A stretch of 32,893 bases of DNA from assembly GCA_035620555.1 (NCBI GenBank), contig DASPGQ010000243.1, positions 1 through 32,893 on the forward strand. Direction: 5' to 3'. Shown here one piece after another: positions 14,461-25,702 of this stretch (its first letter is position 1; each line of letters opens with the position of its first letter). The position numbers were made by a program, and so were the translations under genes. The stretch is from Vicinamibacteria bacterium. GTDB lineage: Bacteria; Acidobacteriota; Vicinamibacteria; Marinacidobacterales; SMYC01. The notes beneath the pieces are model-generated. The model did no database searches, was not told the origin of the DNA, and was given only the letters and a program-made list of their open reading frames with translations.

Positions 14461-15624
14461 TCAACGCGCAATGCGCTTCGCCCCTCGCGGGCGCCCAATC
14501 TTGAATACGTAGGAAGCCAGGAACACCAGCAGGGCGGCGATGGGATGGGACCGATCGAGACCGAGCGTGCGCACGGCGTCCGCGTAGGTGCTCATGCCGG
14601 GCAGCATGCCGATGTTCGCCGGCGAGGCCGCAAGGAAGAGCGTGCTGAGCGACACGTACCACCACATCGTAAGCCTTCGCCAGAATACGCAGCAGGCCGC
14701 CAGGGGAATGGCGAGGTACTGGTCGGCGTTGGCGCTCGCGAACACGACCATGGCAACGAGATATACGAGGAGCTGCGCCGTGTAGCTCTCGAATCGGACA
14801 GCCAACCCGGCCAGCAACATCGCCAGCAGAAACACGAGCTTGAATCCGGAGAAGACCGGCACCCAGGAAAAGAGCGCTTCGATCGTCTTCACCGGAATCA
14901 CGGTGTCGACCAGCCGGGGGAAGAACCCGTCGAGATGGAACGAGTCGTACAGGAAGACGTGCTCGATGACGCCCTCGAGACCGCGCTCGTCCCGAATGAA
15001 CGGAAGAAAGCTCGCGCCAAAGATCAGGAGCGGGGTCAGGGTTGCGAGCCGTCTCGGCCGTGACGATTGGGGGCGAATGAAGAACCAGAAGGGCAAGAAA
15101 ATGAGAACGTGCTTCACCGCGAGAGACAGCCCGAGCAACGACAGGGCAAGAGCCGTTCTCGCGATGGACGCATCTCGGTCGCGGTCGAGAAGGATGCAGG
15201 CGGCAAGCGCGAAAAGAACCGCGAGATTGTCGAATTGCGAATGGAAACCGCTGACCAGCAAAGAGACCGGGTTGAGGAGAAACAGAGCTCCGACGACCAT
15301 CGAAAAGCGACGGACCAGCAAGAAAGCGATGCCGACGTCCACGAGCGAGAGCCACAGCGCAATCAGACGGTGGAAATCTTCTAGTGAGTGGCTTTTGAGC
15401 AACAGAACTTGAAGGGTGCTGGTGACCGCGCAGACGTAGCCCCAAACGGGCCCGTAGGGGTTTCGGTAGGTCTCCGCGTACACGTTCTTCCCGTCCTGGA
15501 TGAGCTGAGCGAACAGGGCCCAGGATTCCAGATCGAAGTTGTGACCGAGACCCGCCAGGTAGACTTTGGCGAGGACCGAGAGTACCGCGAGAAGCGCGAA
15601 GACGACCGCTCTCGGCGCGCTCAC
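14461..15624 (-). CDS. GT-C fold membrane glycosyltransferase (polyprenyl-phosphate sugar dependent)
   Basis: A 387-residue integral membrane protein with about ten hydrophobic helices. It starts at GTG 15624, supported by GGGAG 5 bp upstream (CTCCC at 15630-15634). The first loop has HNFDLESWALF, where acidic residues follow the first helix as in GT-C enzymes (the catalytic Asp region). A later luminal/periplasmic-type loop carries NPVSLLVSGFHSQFDNLA; the H.Q.D pattern is shared with ALG6/ALG8-like (GT57) and related GT87 mannosyl- or glucosyltransferases. The last residues are basic (RPRGAKR), consistent with a cytoplasmic tail. It probably moves a hexose from a lipid-phosphate donor onto a lipid-linked acceptor in the inner membrane. 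Donor and acceptor are unknown, and no glycan cluster surrounds it. Confidence 0.75.
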   Translation of the reverse strand: MSAPRAVVFALLAVLSVLAKVYLAGLGHNFDLESWALFAQLIQDGKNVYAETYRNPYGPVWGYVCAVTSTLQVLLLKSHSLEDFHRLIALWLSLVDVGIAFLLVRRFSMVVGALFLLNPVSLLVSGFHSQFDNLAVLFALAACILLDRDRDASIARTALALSLLGLSLAVKHVLIFLPFWFFIRPQSSRPRRLATLTPLLIFGASFLPFIRDERGLEGVIEHVFLYDSFHLDGFFPRLVDTVIPVKTIEALFSWVPVFSGFKLVFLLAMLLAGLAVRFESYTAQLLVYLVAMVVFASANADQYLAIPLAACCVFWRRLTMWWYVSLSTLFLAASPANIGMLPGMSTYADAVRTLGLDRSHPIAALLVFLASYVFKIGRPRGAKRIAR

Positions 15625-15709: not shown

Positions 15710-16882
15710 TCAAGGCACGTGCCCGTGAGTGGGATCGTGCTTGTGCGTCTCATAGTGTTGCCGGAGAAGATCCTTGCCGTAATCGTTGCCGTTGGGCGTG
15801 CGGACCACGGAGTGAACGTGCCGTCGGGTTGGCACGTCTCTTTGACCGTCGAGGGCGATGGGCCCCTGATGGTCGAACTCGACGAGGATCACGGGACTGT
15901 GAACTCGATAGTAGAAGACCGCGTCCGGACCGGCGTCTCCAATCCAGGCGAAGTAGGTCTCGTCGAGATGGGTCCTCACTTCTTCCATCCGGATCTTCGC
16001 GTGCCCGTCGCGCAGGTTGCCGACGTACTCCTCGATCACGCCGAGAAGCAGCGTCTGCTGAGCCTGAGTGAGCTTGCTCGCCGGGATCCCGGCGTAGTCG
16101 AGAACCAGGTTGTCGTTGTACGCCTGGGCGAGAGCGTTTCCTCGCGTCTTCTCGATATCGAGGATGGCGAGAGCCCGTTGCGCGGGGTCGAGTGACTGCA
16201 CGAGCTCGAGCCCCTTGTTCTGTTCGTCTTGAAGAACCGACGTGCCCGCGTACTTTCCCGACAGAGCCTCCACCGGCTCCGAGCCCATGAACGTAGGTGT
16301 CATGACCACCTGATCGCCGAGGATCGCGTAATTGATCACGAGATGATGGCCGTCGAGCTGCCAACCCCAGGGCTCGGTCATCGAGGGCTCGCCCATCACG
16401 GTGATGAAGTAGAGACCTTCACCGTACTCCTCGTGGTTCGACACAAGCTCCGCAAGGTGCTCGTTCAGTCGCATGACGTTGCGGGTCTTCTCCAGTCCCT
16501 TGGCGCTCAAGCTCGCGCGCAGCAACCCGTAAGCGGACTCCCGTTGAGGCGCGTCCATCTCGCCGAAGGGAACTCCCTCACGCGGCGCTCGGTGCACGTT
16601 GTCCCACTTCCGCCATTCGATATCGTCGACGGGAAACCGCGTCTTCTCTCGCTGCTCCCGAGTGAGAGATGAGAGAAACGTTTCTGCAGCGGTTTTTACC
16701 GGCTCGGTCGAAACGCCCGTCGCGCGGATGGGGAACAGTCCCGGGCGAATCGTGCCGCTGGTCGTGACTCCCTTGAAGGGCTCCGCGAGCGCCTTCTGGC
16801 GCAGCGCCGAGAGGCCCTGGCCGAGGGCGTAAACGGCGATTCCCGTACCGAGGAGTGAAAGCGCGGCTTTCTTGATCATCAT
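15710..16882 (-). CDS. DUF3500 family protein, exported
   Basis: A 390-residue protein. The N-terminus (IKK followed by [18 protein letters not shown]) is a signal peptide or membrane anchor. The body matches the DUF3500 pattern: [15 protein letters not shown], then W....W.....PREGVPF, then [21 protein letters not shown], then [11 protein letters not shown], then [16 protein letters not shown], then PTFMGSEPV. The GHHL and surrounding His residues, and the His-rich C-terminus ([13 protein letters not shown]), could bind metal. The function of DUF3500 is not established. Two adjacent ATG codons (16882, 16879) are possible starts; GGAGG upstream gives better spacing for the second. The His-rich tail is conspicuous and may be taxon-specific. 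No partner genes are evident; the neighbours are a GT-C enzyme and the dodecin. Confidence 0.85.
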
Positions 16883-17096: not shown

Positions 17097-17297
17097 TCAA
17101 TCGACCTTGAACGCGATCTTGCAGGTCGCGTGGTACTCGGAAACGGCGCCGTTTTTGATTTTGGCAGTCTGCGAGACGAGCTCGAGCCCGGTGATGTTCC
17201 GAACGCTCTTCTTCGCCTCCTTGAGAGCTTCTTCCGCAGCGTCTTCCCAGGACTTTTCCGACGTACCTAGCACCTCGATGATCTTGATGGCCGCCAT
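17097..17297 (-). CDS. Dodecin, flavin-binding protein
   Basis: A 66-residue protein matching dodecins, small dodecameric proteins that sequester FMN, riboflavin or lumichrome. The sequence follows the family order: A.IKIIEVLGTSEKSWEDAAEEALKEA, then a central KKSVRNITGLELVSQTAKI, then VSEYHATCKIAFKV. W18 (in KSWEDA) corresponds to the stacking Trp that sandwiches flavins in bacterial dodecins, and length and strand-helix-strand-strand pattern fit. ATG 17297 is preceded by GGGAGGAG with short spacing; the frame continues upstream without family resemblance. It lies 66 bp downstream of the FAM20-like kinase and may be co-transcribed with it, but a candidate promoter sits in the gap. Dodecins are often linked to oxidative or envelope stress. 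Confidence 0.93.
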   Translation of the reverse strand: MAAIKIIEVLGTSEKSWEDAAEEALKEAKKSVRNITGLELVSQTAKIKNGAVSEYHATCKIAFKVD

Positions 17298-17363: not shown

Positions 17364-18113
17364 TCAGAAGAGAACCTCGGACTCCGCTCGTTTGGACAAG
17401 AGCTCGTCGACTCGCTCGAGGACGCGCTTTCGTCTCTCGAGAAGAGCCTCGAGCTCTTCTCGTGTCAGATACTCTCCGAGAGCCGATCGAAAGTCGTCCG
17501 CTCCCAGAATCCGAAGTGCATCGATGACCCTTTTCGGGAAGCGAACGAGCGGGCGCATCGGCACGACGAATCGCTGAAAAGCGCGCGAGTGATCGATCAA
17601 GCGGACCTCGAATCCTTCGGTGATCAGGAGATTGTCGGGTGTCCGATCGATGTTGTACGCAAGGTAGTCGAACACCCAGATGGTGGCGACCTCGTCTTCC
17701 CACTCGTCGAGGCGGAATCCCTCGGGGGATGTTTCGAACGCGGGCAGCACACCGTCCACCCAGTCGATGACCGCTCCCTGGTGATCGTCAATCGATCTCA
17801 CGACCGTTACCGGAACCATCCCGACCCCGAGCAGCTTGTCCAGCTCGTACGCCGCGACCTCGAATTTCCAGGAATCTCTCAGGCCATGCTGCTGCTCACG
17901 TCCCACGGTGACGAGTTGATTTGGGATCTCGATGTCGCGAGTCTTGAAGGCGGCGCGTCGACGGACTCCGTTTCTCTCGAGCTCCAGCATCTCGGGAAGC
18001 GTGATGCCCGTCTCGATCACCTGTTGCCCGACGATCGCCGCCTCGAGCAGAAAGATTTCGCGCTCTGAAATCTGCGTCGCGGTGAGGATGGCAATCAAGG
18101 CGCACAGGGTCAT
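17364..18113 (-). CDS. FAM20/PI3K-like kinase-fold protein, probably exported
   Basis: A 249-residue protein starting at ATG 18113, which overlaps the stop of the TPR gene (ATGA). The first 15 residues (TLCALIAILTAT) look like a short signal peptide. Kinase landmarks: RRRAAFKTRD (K57, candidate ATP-binding Lys), WKFEVAAYELDKLLGVGMVPVTV (E85 or E90, candidate helix-C Glu), FDYLAYNIDRTPDNLLI (D156 catalytic, N161) and VRLIDHSRAF (D174, metal-binding, equivalent to the DNG/DFG Asp). The pattern D..L..N.DR...N..(x10)..ID..RAF is that of FAM20C-like secretory kinases and of related HipA and PI3/4K folds. The C-terminus ends in SEVLF. Partners by context are a TPR protein and an exported PPP phosphatase in the same operon. 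Whether the substrate is a protein, glycan or lipid is unknown. Confidence 0.72.
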   Translation of the reverse strand: MTLCALIAILTATQISEREIFLLEAAIVGQQVIETGITLPEMLELERNGVRRRAAFKTRDIEIPNQLVTVGREQQHGLRDSWKFEVAAYELDKLLGVGMVPVTVVRSIDDHQGAVIDWVDGVLPAFETSPEGFRLDEWEDEVATIWVFDYLAYNIDRTPDNLLITEGFEVRLIDHSRAFQRFVVPMRPLVRFPKRVIDALRILGADDFRSALGEYLTREELEALLERRKRVLERVDELLSKRAESEVLF

Positions 18114-19903
18114 CGCATCTCCTCCATCCACGCGGGCTCTCGCGTGATCATCAGGTGGCGCATCTCGAGATACCTTTCGAGAAAGGGAGCCTCCGCCCTC
18201 GTGGCGACGAGAGTCTTCAGCGTGTCGATGAAGCTCGAGCGAATGTCCTCCTTGAAGGGGTCGCCGAGCCGCTCCTCGACGTAACGCCCGAGAATGTTGA
18301 CGGCTTCCCGGTACTTCGCCCACGCGCCGTCGCCCTCTCCGAGCCCCGCGAGCAAACGGCTCTGGTCCGAGAGCGTGCGGATCTGACCGGGCAGGTCGCC
18401 CGTTTCGCGGCGCAGCAGGAGCACATCGTCGAGGAACAGGACTCCCCTCTCCGCGCTCGGCGCCATCTCGCCGAGAAGGTGGAGAGAATCGATCGCGATC
18501 TCGACGTAGCCGTTCTCCCGGGCGCTTTCGAGAGCGCGGCCGAGGTACTCCGCACCCTCCGCGGGCCGGAGAAGTTTTAGGGAAAACGCCCCCAGCAGTG
18601 CGAGTGCCGCGGCCTCACCCCTTCGGTCGCCGAGCCGGCGAGAGAGCTTGAGCGCGCGGACCGCGTCCAGTTCTCCCTCGTTCAACAGGGTCAAATCCGT
18701 CGTGTTGAACCGCACGTTCGCCAGAACGAAAGCGACGTCCCTATCGAGCCCGAGGTCGTTCGTCTGACGGGCCACCTCGCGAAGGCGCAAAAGCTCGCCG
18801 AGAGTCTCGGACCGGTCGCGCGCGTCCAGATGAGATTGAACCACGGCCATTGCGAGCTTGAGTCGAGCTTCAATTCGCGGGCTTCCCCGCTCGAGAAGAG
18901 CGAGAGCTTGCTCCTGCTGAGCTCTTGCGGCATCGAAGCGACCCCGAACCGCGGTGAGAGCAGCGATGTCCGCGAGCACTACCGATTCGGTCGCGATGTC
19001 GCCCTCGTTTCGACCCATGCGTCGTGCGACCTGGAGGATCTCGAGCGCGCGCGGGTAGTCGTAGCGTGTGGCCTCGCCAACGGCAAGCGTCACGAGAGCG
19101 CACAGCTCGGCCCGAGAATCGCTCGATTCTCTCGCAACCTTGACCGCTTGCTCCGCGTAGGAAAGCGCCGTCTCGACGGGCCGTCCGGTCGAGAGCATCG
19201 ACGCGGCGAGCCGCTCCCACGTCAGGCCCTCATCGTGCCGAAGGCCCGTCTGCTTGTAGAGCGCCTGGGCATCGGCCAGCAGTGTCAAGCCCGTCTCTTC
19301 GTACCCCCGTAACAAGGCTCCCGCCGCTTCTCGCCGGAGCACGTGCGCAAGCTCGGAAGGCCCGAGCGCACGTCGCTCTTCGTCCGACGGTCCAAACACC
19401 GGCGGCACGGCGTCAGGCGCTCGCTCGTCGAACCATCTCTCGGCCTCGTCCGTCGCGTCCGAGAGACTCGCGCGCAGCATGGGAGCCTGCAAGCGATCGC
19501 GCTCGGTCAACGGAAGACGACAGCGGACGCTCTTCTCCTGAATGACGCGGTCACCGACGATATCGACCAGCGTCCATTCGACGTTCGCCGAACTGCCCGA
19601 TGTCGGCGGCGCATCGACCTCTATCTCGGCGGGATCGAGACCATAGTTGCTAGGACGAGCTTCCTCGCCGACCGTAATATCGGCGCGGGTCGAGACGAGT
19701 CGTAGCCGGAGGAGCAGGTCGGCGTCCTCGAGCCGATCGGCCATCTCGACGCGTTTTCCGCTCACCATCTTGGCAACGGTGTCGGTGAAGACCTCGGTCT
19801 CGTTCGGGGAAAATCGAACCCCATCGACCCAGATCGAGGCCTTGCCGGGTTGCGCGATCGCGGTGACCGCCCAGATCATGGGGATCCACCACGGAGTCGG
19901 CAT
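18110..19903 (-). CDS. Exported TPR-repeat protein
   Basis: A 597-residue protein. A hydrophobic N-terminus (WWIPMIWAVTAIAQ) is a probable signal peptide without the usual positive charges. Residues about 20-150 form a separate domain (ASIWVDGVRF...ADLLLRLRLVSTRADI...VEWTLVDIVGDRVI) that resembles the small envelope domains in FlgO/DUF4136-like proteins only vaguely. From about 185 to 560 there are consecutive helix pairs with TPR character (GYEETGLTLLADAQALYKQTG, ALSYAEQAVKVA, ALEILQVARRMG, AARAQQEQALALLE, AAEYL-type units). TPR arrays bind partner proteins, here plausibly the phosphatase and kinase encoded next to it. A strong GAGGAGGT, 5 bp before ATG 19903, lies inside the 11-bp gap after the phosphatase stop. 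The stop overlaps the kinase start by 4 bp. Confidence 0.78.
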   Translation of the reverse strand: MPTPWWIPMIWAVTAIAQPGKASIWVDGVRFSPNETEVFTDTVAKMVSGKRVEMADRLEDADLLLRLRLVSTRADITVGEEARPSNYGLDPAEIEVDAPPTSGSSANVEWTLVDIVGDRVIQEKSVRCRLPLTERDRLQAPMLRASLSDATDEAERWFDERAPDAVPPVFGPSDEERRALGPSELAHVLRREAAGALLRGYEETGLTLLADAQALYKQTGLRHDEGLTWERLAASMLSTGRPVETALSYAEQAVKVARESSDSRAELCALVTLAVGEATRYDYPRALEILQVARRMGRNEGDIATESVVLADIAALTAVRGRFDAARAQQEQALALLERGSPRIEARLKLAMAVVQSHLDARDRSETLGELLRLREVARQTNDLGLDRDVAFVLANVRFNTTDLTLLNEGELDAVRALKLSRRLGDRRGEAAALALLGAFSLKLLRPAEGAEYLGRALESARENGYVEIAIDSLHLLGEMAPSAERGVLFLDDVLLLRRETGDLPGQIRTLSDQSRLLAGLGEGDGAWAKYREAVNILGRYVEERLGDPFKEDIRSSFIDTLKTLVATRAEAPFLERYLEMRHLMITREPAWMEEMR

Positions 19904-19914
19904 CGGTCACCTCC

Positions 19915-21513
19915 TCACTCTTTCTCGACCAGCTTCGCGATCGCCGCCTCGACCTCGGGGCGACCGGGCTCGACGCGCTCTGCGTCCCGAAAGCTCGCGA
20001 GCGCTTGCTCCTCGTTCCCCAGCAGCAGATGGGCGCGGCCCATCAGAAACAGACTCTCGAAACTCTCGCCGTCGCGGAGGCGTCGTGCCGCCGTCAGGAC
20101 CCGCTGAGCCCGCCGGGCGTCACCCTTCTCGAGATACGCCCAGGCGAGCGTCTCCTTGAAGGCGGCATTTTTTGGCGCTGCCGAGGCCGCGCGCGCGGCC
20201 GCATCGAACGCCTGATCGACGTCGTAGCCGAACCGCAGGCTTTCCCGGGCAAACCGATTCCAATAGTAGGGCCCGGGAACCTTGCCGAGCTCCTCGAGGT
20301 AGGCGATGCGGAGGTCCTTCGCCCTGGCCGCTTCGCCCGCTTTCTCGAAGCAATCCGCGGCGTCGCGTCGCCAGATGTAAGGAATGCGCACGTCCGATTC
20401 CAGAACGCCGACGGTCTCGTGCAGCGCCAACCCTTCGGCAAGACGCCCCTCACGGCATCGGACGACGCCGAGCCAATGACCGAGAGCGGCGTCGTCGGGC
20501 GACGCGGCGGCGACCGCTTCCAGGTAGAGCGCACCCTCCTCCCCTTCGAGGGTCCTTGACAAGGGGACCGATCCCTTATCGTACACGGCCGAGAAGCGAT
20601 CTCCCTCGATCACCAGGGCTGCCACGCGGCCGCCGAAATAGACGTCGAGCATGCCGGCATCGATGAGAACCGCGCGACCGTCGAAGCGCGGCTCGATGAG
20701 CCCGTACGTCACGGTGTGACCCATGATCATCGCTCGGGCGCCTAGGGATTGGAGCACGACCTCGAGCTCGGCTTCGCGGGCGGGAAGCTCCTCGGCAAGG
20801 AGGTCATCGCTCGAATAGAAACGCGTGAGGAGCGGGCCGTCGTCCTCGTTGGCGAAGCTCGTCGGCCAGCTTGTCTCATTCATTGCTTCTCGTACGAGGC
20901 GGTTGAGCTCTCCAAGACCGAGCTCCGCACTAGGGGACATAATCCCTCCGTGGACGAAGACGTAGTCTCCGATCTTCACCGCCGCGTTGTTCTTCCGGAT
21001 CCATCTCCCGTAGACTCCCTCTGGGCCATAGGCCTCGCGAAGGGCGAGCTCTCCCGGATGAGCGTCGAGTCCGGACTCTTTGCGAAGCTCCTCGTCTCGG
21101 TCAGTCGCGAAGGCTTCTAGCTCTCCCTCGGAAACGTAGGGGAGGTGTCCCACGGCGTTCCAGAGCTCGTGGTTTCCGATGAGGGCGTGGACTCTCCCAC
21201 CAGCCGCCTGCGCTTGACCTTCGAGGGACATCAAGAGGTCCATGACTTTGCGTGATTCCGCCCCCCGGTCGAGCACATCGCCCGTCTGCACCAGATGGGA
21301 GGCACCGCCGATCCATTGGTGCCCGTCATCGACGAGTCCCGTTCTCGTAAGCGCCCTGACGAAGTTGTCGTAAGCCCCATGGACATCACCCACGGCAACG
21401 ATGCGTGCCGGAGCTTCGAACTCGAAAGGAACTTCCTGCGCCCGACCGAGCGCGGGACCGACGAAGGCAAGGAACGCCGGGACCACGAGGAGGAAGGATC
21501 CTCGTTTCCACAT
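19915..21513 (-). CDS. Exported PPP-family (Shewanella-like) phosphatase with C-terminal TPR region
   Basis: A 532-residue protein. The signal peptide is clear: WKRG followed by a hydrophobic stretch SFLLVVPAFLAFVGPALG and a cleavage site near residue 26. The metallophosphatase core carries every PPP signature: GDVHG (42-46), GDVLDRG (78-84), GNHE (113-116), VFVHGG (186-190) and MGHT (264-267), so the metal ligands D43, H45, D79, N114, H188 and H266 are all present. This combination, with DRG and GNHE, matches the Shewanella-like Ser/Thr phosphatases. Residues about 310-532 consist of TPR-like helix pairs (ALGHWLGVVRCREGRLAEGLAL, AWAYLEKGDARRAQRVL, GRAHLLLGNEEQALASFRDAERVEPG). GGAG 7 bp before ATG 21513 is the ribosome site. 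It is the first gene of the phosphatase-TPR-kinase operon. Confidence 0.88.
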   Translation of the reverse strand: MWKRGSFLLVVPAFLAFVGPALGRAQEVPFEFEAPARIVAVGDVHGAYDNFVRALTRTGLVDDGHQWIGGASHLVQTGDVLDRGAESRKVMDLLMSLEGQAQAAGGRVHALIGNHELWNAVGHLPYVSEGELEAFATDRDEELRKESGLDAHPGELALREAYGPEGVYGRWIRKNNAAVKIGDYVFVHGGIMSPSAELGLGELNRLVREAMNETSWPTSFANEDDGPLLTRFYSSDDLLAEELPAREAELEVVLQSLGARAMIMGHTVTYGLIEPRFDGRAVLIDAGMLDVYFGGRVAALVIEGDRFSAVYDKGSVPLSRTLEGEEGALYLEAVAAASPDDAALGHWLGVVRCREGRLAEGLALHETVGVLESDVRIPYIWRRDAADCFEKAGEAARAKDLRIAYLEELGKVPGPYYWNRFARESLRFGYDVDQAFDAAARAASAAPKNAAFKETLAWAYLEKGDARRAQRVLTAARRLRDGESFESLFLMGRAHLLLGNEEQALASFRDAERVEPGRPEVEAAIAKLVEKE

Positions 21514-21692: not shown

Positions 21693-22595
21693 TTATTTCA
21701 CGACCCATACGGGCGCCTCGCAGAAGCGCGCGACGCGCTCGGCGACGCTTCCTATCAGCAGGTGCTTCAAGCCTGAGAGACCGCGCGAGCCCATCACGAC
21801 GATCTCGTCCGCGTGCTTCTCCCGCTCGTGAAGAATCTGTCCGGCGATGTTCCCGTCCGCCACCGTGACCTCTCCGGGCGTTTCGCCGAGCATGCCGCGT
21901 AGCGCATCCTGAAGCTTTCCCCGAAGCTCGGGCTCGGCCTCGAGAGGACTCGTCAAGCCGCCGGGCGCGAAGGGGGTGTGGAGGAGCTCGACCACGTGCA
22001 GCAGGTGGAGCCTCCCGCCGAAATCGGTCGCGAGCTCGCGAGCCACGCCCAGGGCGCGCTGCGAATGCTCGCTGAAATCCACGGGAACGAGAACCCGCAA
22101 CGAACCGCTTTCCCCCGCTATCGCCGTGCTGTCGCGAAGCATCAGCACCTGGCAGGAGAGATGCCGCAGCACCTTCTCCGCGACGCTTCCCATCAGAAGC
22201 TTCTCGATCCCCTCCCTTCCATGACTGCCCATACAGACGAGATCGGGCTTCCAATCCTCTGCCAACCGCGCGATCGCATTGTAGGGCTCGCGTGCGCCCT
22301 CCAGGGTAGAATCCGCCGCCAAGCCGCTCTCCCGGACTCTCTTCACGAGTCGCCCGAGATGCTCCTCCGCCTCACGTCGCGGATCCTCGAAATACTGACT
22401 CAAAATCCGATCGAGCGCTTCCGCCCGTTGCTTTCCGTCGATGTCGGGCGGTGGCAGCTCGGGAACGCGGTAAACCGGTCGATGCAGCAGGTGAATCTCG
22501 GCCTGGTATCGGCGCCCGAGCACCATCGCCTGCTCGAGGGCGCGCTCGGCCGCTCCGGAAAAGTCCGTCGGAACAAGGATGCGGCGCAGGTGCAT
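21693..22595 (-). CDS. Universal stress protein with two UspA domains
   Basis: A 300-residue cytoplasmic protein with two UspA domains in tandem (about 1-153 and 165-300). Each begins with a beta-strand plus (V)P.DFS (ILVPTDFSGAAERAL; VLVPVDFSEHSQRAL). Each ends with the ATP-binding G..G..(9)..GS motif: MGSHGREGIEKLLMGSVAEKV (about 122-142) and MGSRGLSGLKHLLIGSVAERV (268-288). Both nucleotide sites therefore look functional. Such tandem proteins respond to starvation, oxidants or envelope stress in the cytoplasm. GAGGAG 8 bp before ATG 22595 supports the start. It is upstream of the phosphatase operon on the same strand, separated by 179 bp, and divergent from the M16 peptidase. Confidence 0.95.
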   Translation of the reverse strand: MHLRRILVPTDFSGAAERALEQAMVLGRRYQAEIHLLHRPVYRVPELPPPDIDGKQRAEALDRILSQYFEDPRREAEEHLGRLVKRVRESGLAADSTLEGAREPYNAIARLAEDWKPDLVCMGSHGREGIEKLLMGSVAEKVLRHLSCQVLMLRDSTAIAGESGSLRVLVPVDFSEHSQRALGVARELATDFGGRLHLLHVVELLHTPFAPGGLTSPLEAEPELRGKLQDALRGMLGETPGEVTVADGNIAGQILHEREKHADEIVVMGSRGLSGLKHLLIGSVAERVARFCEAPVWVVK

Positions 22596-22893: not shown

Positions 22894-22942
22894 TTGGGGC
22901 GACGAAGTAAGATGCGTGGAGTCGGACTGCTGGAGGAGGACG

Positions 22943-25702
22943 ATGCCGCATCTGAGTGCCTGGCTTTTTTTCTTGGGAGTCTTCCTGGTCTCTTCGCTCG
23001 CTCTTCCATCGAGCACTCAAGACGTCTCCTTACCCGAAGGAATCCAACGGGTCGCCTCGGTCGAAGGGATCACCGAGTACCGGCTCGACAACGGACTGCG
23101 CCTGCTGCTCTTTCCCGACCCATCCAAACTGACGATTACCGTGAACATCACCTATCTCGTGGGTTCCAAGCACGAAGGCTATGGCGAGACGGGGATGGCG
23201 CACCTGCTCGAGCACCTGGTCTTCAAAGGGACCCCCGCGCATCCGGACATTCCCCAGGAGCTGACGGAACACGGGGCGCGGCCGAACGGGACGACATGGT
23301 ACGACCGGACGAACTACTTCGAGACGTTCCCCGCCAACGACGAGAACCTCGAATGGGCCCTCGATCTCGAGGCCGACCGAATGGTGAACAGCTTCATCGC
23401 CCGGAGGGACTTGGACTCGGAAATGACGGTTGTCCGCAACGAGTTCGAGATGGGAGAAAACTACCCCCAGAACGTCCTCATGCAAAGGATGCTCTCGACG
23501 GCCTATCTCTGGCACAGCTACGGAAAATCCACCATTGGGTCCCGAGCCGATATCGAGAACGTTCCCATCGAGAACCTCCAGGCCTTCTACCGTACGTGGT
23601 ACCAGCCCGACAATAGCGTCCTGATCGTGGCGGGAAACTTCGACGAGTCTGCGGCGCTCGAGCTCGTGCGACGAAAGTTGGGTACCATTCCCCGTCCGGT
23701 TCGCACGCTCCCTTCGAGCTACACTGTGGAGCCTCCGCAGGACGGCGAACGCTCCGTGACCCTTCGGCGTGTGGGCGATGTTCAAGTTGTCGGCGCGGCT
23801 TTCCACGTCCCCGCCGGATCGCATCCCGACTTCGCCGCCATCGATCTTCTGTCGTTCGTTCTCGGCGACACCCCTTCGGGAAGACTCTATAAGGCGCTGG
23901 TGGAAACTCAGAAAGCCTCCCGGGCCTCATCTTTCGCATTCCAGCTCGCCGACCCCGGCATCCTCTTCGCTCTTGCCGAGGTCAGGAAAGACGGTTCGCT
24001 CGCCGAGGCCAGAGACATTCTTCTGCGCGAAATCGACCGTGTGATCGAAGAGCCACCGACGCAAGAAGAGATCGATCGAGCGCGAGCGAGCCGGCTGAAG
24101 GACTGGGACACCACGATGCGAGCCTCGGAGCGAGCGGCCATCCTGCTGTCCAACTGGGCAGCCATGGGCGATTGGCGCTTGATGTTCCTCCATCGCGATC
24201 GTCTGGAGAAAGTCACGCCGGAGGACGTTCACCGCGTCGCCGTCGCTTATCTCGCGAGCATCAATCGCACCGTAGGACTCTATATCCCGACGACGGAACC
24301 CCTGCGCGCTGAGGTCCCGGCAGCTCCCAACATCGACGCCCTGGTCGAAGATTATAAAGGCAGGGAGACGCTGGCGATGGGCGAGGCATTCGATCCCTCC
24401 CCCGAGGCGGTCGAATCGCGCACCGCACGCAGCGAGATCGAGCCTGGCTTGCGCATCGCGCTATTACCCAAGAAGACGCGGGGGAGTGTCATCCAGATCG
24501 CGCTCGACCTGCGCTTCGGCAATGCGGACGACTTGCGGGGCCGGGCAAGCGCCGGCGAGCTGACAGCGCCGATGTTGCTGCGCGGAACCGAGTCAAAGAG
24601 CCGCCAGGAAATCCAGGACGAGCTCGATCGCCTCCGAGCCAATCTTCGCCTTTTCGGTGAAGCGAGCCGGGCGGGTGTCCGGCTGGAAGTCCCTCGCGAG
24701 AACCTCCTCCCCGCGCTCGATCTCGTCGCCGAGATTCTTCGCCATCCGTCTTTTCCCTCCTCCGAGCTCGAGGTCTTGAGACAAGAGACCCTTGCCCGGC
24801 TGGAAGATTCGAGAAGCGATCCGTTGCAGATCGCCATGACGGCTTTTCGTCGTCATTCGATGGATTGGCCGAAAGAGGACCCTCGTTACGTGCCCACGCT
24901 CGAAGAGCGCATCGAACGCACCAAGTCCGTCACGCTGGACGAGATACGTGAGTTCCACACCCGGTTCTACGGCCTGTCGCACGCCGAGCTCGCCGCCGTC
25001 GGGGACTTCGACGCAACCGAATTGGAGTCGGCGTTACGTGATCTCTTCGGAGGTTGGACGAGCGGATCCACCTACGCGCGTCTCGAATCGCCCTACCGGG
25101 ACAAACCTCCCCTGATCGAGGAGCTCGAGGCCCCGGATAAGGAAAGTGCGGTGTTCCTCGCGGGGTTGCCGATGGAAATTCGTGATGAGGATCCCGATTA
25201 TCCGGCGCTCGTCCTGGGCAACTTCATGACCGGCGGCGGCTTCCTCAACTCCCGTGTCGCCACCCGGCTTCGGCAGAAGGAAGGCCTGAGCTACGGGGCC
25301 GGGTGCACTTTCGACGCGAGCGCATGGGAGAAGAGCGGCCGATTCTTCTGCTATGCAATCTACGCTCCCCAGCACGCCGAACGGCTGGAGTCGTCGTTCA
25401 AGGAGGAGATAGCCCGGATTCTCGATGATGGGTTCAGCGCCGAGGAGATCGCAGCTGCCAAACAAGGCTGGCTCGAGCAGCGGCGGCTTTCCCGAGCTCA
25501 AGAGCGAGAGCTCGCCGCTTCACTCAACGCGCTCGGCTACGAAGGTCGCACGCTGGAATGGGCGAGTCGATTGGAGGCCGAGGTTCGAGCGCTGAGCGCT
25601 TCGGACATCCTCGAAGCGATGCAACGCCACTTGAAGCTAGACAAGATGTCGTTCGTAAAGGCCGGCGACTTCGCGCGCGTTGGCACCCATCCGGAGAAGT
25701 GA
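22943..25702 (+). CDS. Exported M16-family zinc peptidase, full two-half form
   Basis: A 919-residue exported peptidase of the pitrilysin/insulinase family. The signal peptide is at residues 1-25 (PHLSAWLFFLGVFLVSSLALPSS). The N-terminal half has the inverted zinc motif HLLEH (H87, E90, H91) and the third ligand E167 in VVRNEFE, exactly 76 residues after H91. The C-terminal half lacks HxxEH but keeps the GGGFLNSRVATRLRQKEGLSYGAG segment, whose Arg/Tyr pair binds substrate. A single chain carrying active and inactive halves is usual for this subfamily. It probably degrades peptides in the periplasm or at the cell surface. ATG 22943 was chosen because GGAGGAGG precedes it; GTG 22916 would spoil the signal peptide. 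The stop is 16 bp from the convergent small gene. Confidence 0.93.
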   Translation: MPHLSAWLFFLGVFLVSSLALPSSTQDVSLPEGIQRVASVEGITEYRLDNGLRLLLFPDPSKLTITVNITYLVGSKHEGYGETGMAHLLEHLVFKGTPAHPDIPQELTEHGARPNGTTWYDRTNYFETFPANDENLEWALDLEADRMVNSFIARRDLDSEMTVVRNEFEMGENYPQNVLMQRMLSTAYLWHSYGKSTIGSRADIENVPIENLQAFYRTWYQPDNSVLIVAGNFDESAALELVRRKLGTIPRPVRTLPSSYTVEPPQDGERSVTLRRVGDVQVVGAAFHVPAGSHPDFAAIDLLSFVLGDTPSGRLYKALVETQKASRASSFAFQLADPGILFALAEVRKDGSLAEARDILLREIDRVIEEPPTQEEIDRARASRLKDWDTTMRASERAAILLSNWAAMGDWRLMFLHRDRLEKVTPEDVHRVAVAYLASINRTVGLYIPTTEPLRAEVPAAPNIDALVEDYKGRETLAMGEAFDPSPEAVESRTARSEIEPGLRIALLPKKTRGSVIQIALDLRFGNADDLRGRASAGELTAPMLLRGTESKSRQEIQDELDRLRANLRLFGEASRAGVRLEVPRENLLPALDLVAEILRHPSFPSSELEVLRQETLARLEDSRSDPLQIAMTAFRRHSMDWPKEDPRYVPTLEERIERTKSVTLDEIREFHTRFYGLSHAELAAVGDFDATELESALRDLFGGWTSGSTYARLESPYRDKPPLIEELEAPDKESAVFLAGLPMEIRDEDPDYPALVLGNFMTGGGFLNSRVATRLRQKEGLSYGAGCTFDASAWEKSGRFFCYAIYAPQHAERLESSFKEEIARILDDGFSAEEIAAAKQGWLEQRRLSRAQERELAASLNALGYEGRTLEWASRLEAEVRALSASDILEAMQRHLKLDKMSFVKAGDFARVGTHPEK

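Follow-up and report, generated by a model that had tools for sequence, protein, structure and literature searches.

Do three tightly packed genes of a Vicinamibacteria bacterium encode a phosphorylation circuit that works outside the cytoplasm, and where would its ATP come from? The window, i.e., the whole stretch of 32,893 nucleotides that was analysed, carries three minus-strand ORFs in a tight operon, coding for a phosphatase (532 aa), a TPR protein (597 aa) and a kinase-like protein (249 aa). The original prediction read them as eraser, scaffold and writer, and left the supply of extracytoplasmic ATP as a puzzle. The sequence confirmed the packing it described, in which 11 bp separate the first two genes and the last two share an ATGA:

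19915–21513, minus strand: Shewanella-like (Shelph) PPP phosphatase with C-terminal TPR repeats (Pfam, PDB matches, motifs)
19904–19914, minus strand: 11-bp gap between the phosphatase and TPR genes, containing part of a Shine–Dalgarno sequence (sequence)
18110–19903, minus strand: TPR protein, 597 aa, lineage-specific (TPR_12, homologue search)
18110–18113, minus strand: ATGA overlap of the TPR stop and kinase start codons, coupling both genes (sequence)
17364–18113, minus strand: FAM20-like kinase, 249 aa (profile A1, AlphaFold, Foldseek, residue census)

The Shine–Dalgarno sequence preceding the TPR gene, AGGAGGTGA, is strong and starts inside the phosphatase stop codon. Upstream of the operon lies a tandem universal stress protein gene (21696–22595, minus strand) and downstream a dodecin gene (17100–17294, minus strand). 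The window also encodes a two-unit M16 peptidase (22916–25699, plus strand), a DUF3500 protein (15713–16882, minus strand) and a 387-residue membrane protein (14464–15624, minus strand). The latter has no Pfam match and by eye resembles a polytopic glycosyltransferase.

The phosphatase begins with a classical signal peptide (MWKRGSFLLVVPAFLAFVGPALGRAQ, residues ~1–25). The N-terminus of the window kinase, MTLCALIAILTATQ, contains an h-region and a cleavage-like site, MTLCALIAILTAT followed by Q, and that of the TPR protein is hydrophobic with an AIA-Q cleavage-like site. Both lack a positive n-region, so the case for their export rests partly on homologues. Nearly all kinase homologues begin like a signal peptide, and many of these segments end in AxA-Q. 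According to a crude measure of export signals, a strong hydrophobic stretch precedes the domain in 164 of the 173 non-fused kinases, as compared with 45% of neighbouring control genes. Export of the window kinase is likely on this basis. Of the predicted export of all three products, that of the phosphatase and of the kinase family is supported by their signals; those of the window kinase and the TPR protein proved atypical.

Homologues of the 249-residue kinase were found in 19 of 60 related genomes, with up to 14 matches per genome. Profile A1, built from 59 kinase homologues, was searched against all PDB sequences. The best matches were FAM20A (E = 7e-15), FAM20C (1e-11), the hydra Fam20 xylosylkinase (6e-11) and worm Fam20 (2e-8); zebrafish Fam20C was also among the top matches, and PI4K-II ranked after the FAM20 chains (1e-4). 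The AlphaFold model of the window kinase (mean pLDDT 93.6, pTM 0.90) retrieved FAM20 entries at Foldseek ranks 1–23 against the PDB, with PI4K-II and PI3K-type kinases lower. HipA was absent from the listed PDB profile matches and Foldseek matches, and the HipA-like kinase family (PF20613) was rejected at 12.2 bits against a gathering score of 27. A kinase fold with FAM20 affinity had been proposed from the letters, together with a comparison to the FAM20C, HipA and PI4K folds; the profile search and the Foldseek search with the AlphaFold model both led to FAM20 first, with PI4K-II behind it and HipA unlisted.

Against Pfam, the window kinase gave only a sub-threshold match to PI3_PI4_kinase (PF00454, E = 1.8e-4; 21.9 bits against a gathering score of 27.1); at least one kinase homologue passes this score (35.9 bits). 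The PI4K type II and PI3K–PI4K kinases share with it the DRxxxN...ID motif and the fold, but they fall behind FAM20 in the profile and Foldseek searches and the bacterial family is predicted to be exported, and we rejected this assignment. TIGR03843 (SCO1664) weakly resembles the greater part of the domain in 56/59 kinase homologues, but the window kinase reaches only 32.8 bits against a curated cut-off of 172. Pfam Fam20C (PF06702) did not match the window kinase, and 6 of the 59 homologues matched it weakly (best E = 1.4e-4). The FAM20 disulfides and N-terminal segments are absent, the single Cys of the window kinase lying in its signal region. We do not claim formal FAM20 membership, because the protein stays below the Pfam Fam20C model and lacks the disulfides of the animal kinases. 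The proposed FAM20 affinity is right in the sense of FAM20-like: both the profile and the Foldseek search placed FAM20 ahead of other PKL folds.

The HMM alignment to human FAM20C placed K57, D80, E85, D156 and D174 opposite K285, E306, E311, D458 and D478; together with N161, these are the predicted catalytic residues of the window kinase. In FAM20C, K285 and E311 form an ion pair, D458 is the catalytic Asp and D478 the metal Asp, and E306 is a FAM20-specific Glu, at whose position the pseudokinase FAM20A has Gln instead (Cui et al. 2015, PMC4421793). Among 189 distinct homologues, K57 was conserved in 156, E85 in 160, D156 in 162, N161 in 144 and D174 in 188. Position 80, corresponding to Glu306, holds Asp or Glu in 183/189 homologues; the Asp of the window kinase is, judged from the alignment, a conservative change and not an identity. 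The four residues originally listed (K57, D156, N161, D174) are all present and conserved in most homologues, but D80 and E85, at the Glu306 and Glu311 positions, had been overlooked. A subfamily of about 20 of the 189 homologues carries Gln at K57 and Asn at E85 while retaining D156 and D174, so that a Gln–Asn combination replaces the FAM20 Lys–Glu ion pair.

The phosphatase matched Pfam Metallophos (E = 9.9e-13) and TPR_19. Its closest solved chains were the Shewanella tyrosine phosphatases 1v73, 2zbm and 2z72 (E ~1e-28), and the family profile matched the same three at E = 9e-59. We found the metal-ligand motifs GDVHG, GDVLDRG and GNHE, as well as H167 and H245 (domain numbering). D22, H24, D58, N93, H94, H167 and H245 were invariant among 43 homologues, so the description of a PPP phosphatase with all metal motifs and TPR repeats stands. 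The AlphaFold model of the catalytic domain had a pLDDT of 96.1. By sequence, the enzyme is of the Shewanella-like PPP type, with all the metal motifs of the solved and the Plasmodium and Toxoplasma members. Unlike these, it is fused to TPR repeats here and to kinase domains in other lineages, and is linked to a FAM20-like kinase. The Toxoplasma Shelph resides in the ER, which offers a parallel to a bacterial phosphatase that is predicted to be exported.

We surveyed the pairing in 297 genomes of the phylum by counting strong matches; the genome counts ignore relatedness, and most named records are MAGs. The kinase had a strong match in 59 genomes, the phosphatase in 51 and both in 49. The phosphatase was thus found in 49/59 kinase genomes as against 2/238 of the others, and ten kinase genomes had no strong phosphatase match. 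The two genes lay within 10 kb of each other in 37 of the 297 genomes, for which a rough binomial estimate gave a negligible probability by chance. Proteins in which phosphatase and kinase are fused occurred both in Acidobacteriota and in an independent order, labelled gammaproteobacterial in its MAGs; each of the six loci examined in that order encodes such a fusion. These results support the kinase and the phosphatase as an evolutionarily conserved writer–eraser pair. The TPR protein (TPR_12, E = 5.4e-9) had a full-length homologue only in its own genome and in one other (G001) among 60 relatives, and we rejected it as a conserved scaffold. Of the proposed co-occurring trio, the neighbourhood survey therefore retained the kinase–phosphatase pair but not the TPR protein.

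Clustering of the genes around the kinase loci revealed a further partner. The most frequent neighbour was a TLC ATP/ADP transporter (PF03219, over the cut-off), i.e., an NTT-type translocase. With relatedness ignored, TLC occurred in 59/59 strong-kinase genomes and in 36/238 kinase-negative genomes of the phylum (p = 1.7e-37); all 51 phosphatase genomes of the phylum had it. At the genus level, with a looser kinase set of 64 genomes, the ratio was 42/45 versus 24/122 (p = 8e-19). Kinase and NTT genes were within 10 kb in 25 genomes. NhaC, an unrelated control transporter, was present in 37/59 kinase and 85/238 other genomes; this association is weak (odds ratio 3), and generic genome content was rejected as the source of the kinase–NTT link. 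The NTT profile matches solved ADP,ATP carriers (9j3n, E = 1e-35), and the linked NTTs, which are of a divergent/HEAT type, score far below the cut-off of the NCBI/NCBIfam NTP/NDP-exchange model.

Gene order shows the same linkage. In Aminicenantes, the operon runs phosphatase, kinase-like, NTT, kinase, kinase, and an NTT–phosphatase–kinase set is almost gapless in genome G025 (locus L045). There was no NTT gene on the window's contig. Elsewhere in the same genome, contig C277 (L055) has consecutive genes for an NTT-HEAT protein, a cNMP-binding protein and a kinase paralogue with a signal peptide, and contig C614 (L096) encodes NTT-HEAT, a cNMP-binding protein and a phosphatase–TPR paralogue in overlapping genes. 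Because nearly every genome of the gammaproteobacterial order has an NTT (52/59), only adjacency and the subtype of NTT carry information in this group. The type most similar to the linked NTTs described above was found in 9/13 kinase genomes and 3/46 others (p = 1e-5), and six genomes had an NTT gene at a distance of 98–384 bp from the kinase domain, which was part of a gene as long as the fusions.

At L055 (4747–5178), L096 (10499–11374) and L105 (6224–7153), a gene for a cNMP-binding-domain protein separates the NTT-HEAT gene from that of the kinase or phosphatase, which suggests regulation by a cyclic nucleotide or a similar ligand. The architectures NTT-HEAT and NTT-HEAT-cNBD and the cNBD operon partner were described by Major et al. 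2017 (PMC5381601) in many free-living bacteria, with their function left open. The NTTs of the present survey share these features, exceed the PF03219 cut-off and are linked to kinases and phosphatases that are predicted to be exported. On the opposite strand of Aminicenantes kinase operons, we observed a lipoprotein with a Phytase-like/SdiA-regulated propeller (L127, 6072–6935; neighbour cluster 7, nine loci), a possible substrate or partner.

The translocase suggests a specific answer to the question of ATP supply that the original prediction raised. We favour, at a probability of about 0.62, the reading that the window operon is one copy of a module for phosphorylation outside the bacterial cytoplasm, comprising a kinase, a phosphatase and ATP fed by an NTT. 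Here we infer that the kinase is catalytically active on proteins, that the phosphatase reverses its action and that the NTT exports ATP. The FAM20-like kinase would act as the writer on substrates that are secreted or lie in the envelope, most probably at Ser, Thr or Tyr residues of proteins, and the Shewanella-like phosphatase would be the eraser, removing the phosphate and resetting the substrates. The NTT-type antiporter would carry cytoplasmic ATP out and bring in the ADP that the kinase releases in the periplasm; as ATP is swapped for ADP, no adenylate would be lost. The lineage-specific TPR protein may recruit a substrate. In the window genome, NTT genes are present in the sister operons on C277, with the kinase paralogue, and C614, with the phosphatase paralogue. 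A point against this reading is that ATP might leak through porins.

The substrate need not be a protein. FAM20B phosphorylates xylose and PI4K-II phosphorylates lipid, and the closest solved relatives of the window kinase include PI4K-II and the FAM20B-type hydra Fam20; moreover, 13 of the 59 kinase homologues weakly match Kdo kinase. The kinase could therefore modify an envelope glycan or lipid, with the phosphatase trimming that phosphate. We consider this unlikely, though with a real chance of being correct. Among the clusters examined, no glycan or lipid synthesis gene clearly recurred beside the kinase, and those Shewanella-like PPPs whose activity is known bear the names of protein (tyrosine) phosphatases in the PDB, in agreement with the literature on Plasmodium Slps (PMC9769683). 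Pairing and fusion with a PPP phosphomonoesterase point to phosphate esters in any case. They leave scarcely any room for other PKL chemistry, such as the AMPylation or glutamylation carried out by the PKL folds SelO and SidJ.

Doubts may also be raised about the activity of the kinase and the direction of transport. Aminicenantes copies beside or fused to the phosphatase mostly carry Cys at position 156 in place of the catalytic Asp (L127, L133, L161, L139, L150, L158 and similar loci), and several phosphatase–kinase fusions in other Acidobacteriota have lost D156. The Cys-156 domain may be a targeting pseudokinase. It is nevertheless very improbable that the kinase-like proteins are mostly pseudokinases regulating or targeting the phosphatase in the way that FAM20A regulates FAM20C: K57, the acidic residue 80, E85, D156 and D174 are retained in the window kinase and in the majority of the 189 homologues, and the separate Aminicenantes kinases encoded 3' of the NTT gene retain the catalytic residues and look active. 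As for transport, gradients drive an exchanger of this kind, and ATP is normally much more concentrated in the cytoplasm than outside, which argues against NTT-mediated import of extracellular nucleotides that would leave the kinase and phosphatase to nucleotide sensing or salvage on environmental ATP. Import does find a precedent in the characterised NTTs, which stem from parasites and plastids and in most cases serve the uptake of ATP or nucleotides (PMC5381601), and cNMP-binding proteins are encoded beside NTT-HEAT. We regard it as improbable, since the genomes are multi-megabase with no signs of an intracellular lifestyle, and the NTTs are linked to kinases that would use ATP beyond the membrane.

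The bacterial kinase comes close to the FAM20 kinases (FAM20C, FAM20B and the pseudokinase FAM20A) in predicted fold, in profile similarity and at five catalytic positions, including the acidic one at Glu306, as well as in a predicted site beyond the inner membrane and in predicted pseudokinase relatives. Unlike them, the bacterial kinase has a core of ~220 residues without the extra N-terminal segments and the Cys-rich disulfide pattern, shares an operon with a PPP phosphatase or is fused to one, is linked to NTTs, and in most members does not match Pfam Fam20C.

To our knowledge, ATP-dependent phosphorylation is generally thought to be absent from the bacterial periplasm, where ATP is lacking. 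With the kinase and the phosphatase so consistently accompanied by an ATP/ADP translocase, its occurrence there becomes directly testable. No description of bacterial FAM20, of periplasmic kinases or of a kinase–phosphatase–NTT set was found in the open-licence literature, which is weak evidence of absence; two FAM20 papers (PMC7948968, PMC5865150) describe no bacterial FAM20. We see about an even chance that at least two bacterial phyla possess dedicated extracytoplasmic phosphorylation, in which FAM20-like kinases and Shelph phosphatases work with NTT exchangers that energise the periplasm with ATP. If true, this would provide a function for the NTT and NTT-HEAT proteins of free-living bacteria, and would suggest that the FAM20 secretory kinases of animals have a relative, or their source, in bacteria. 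If confirmed, soil and sediment bacteria would have a counterpart of the phosphorylation in the animal secretory pathway.
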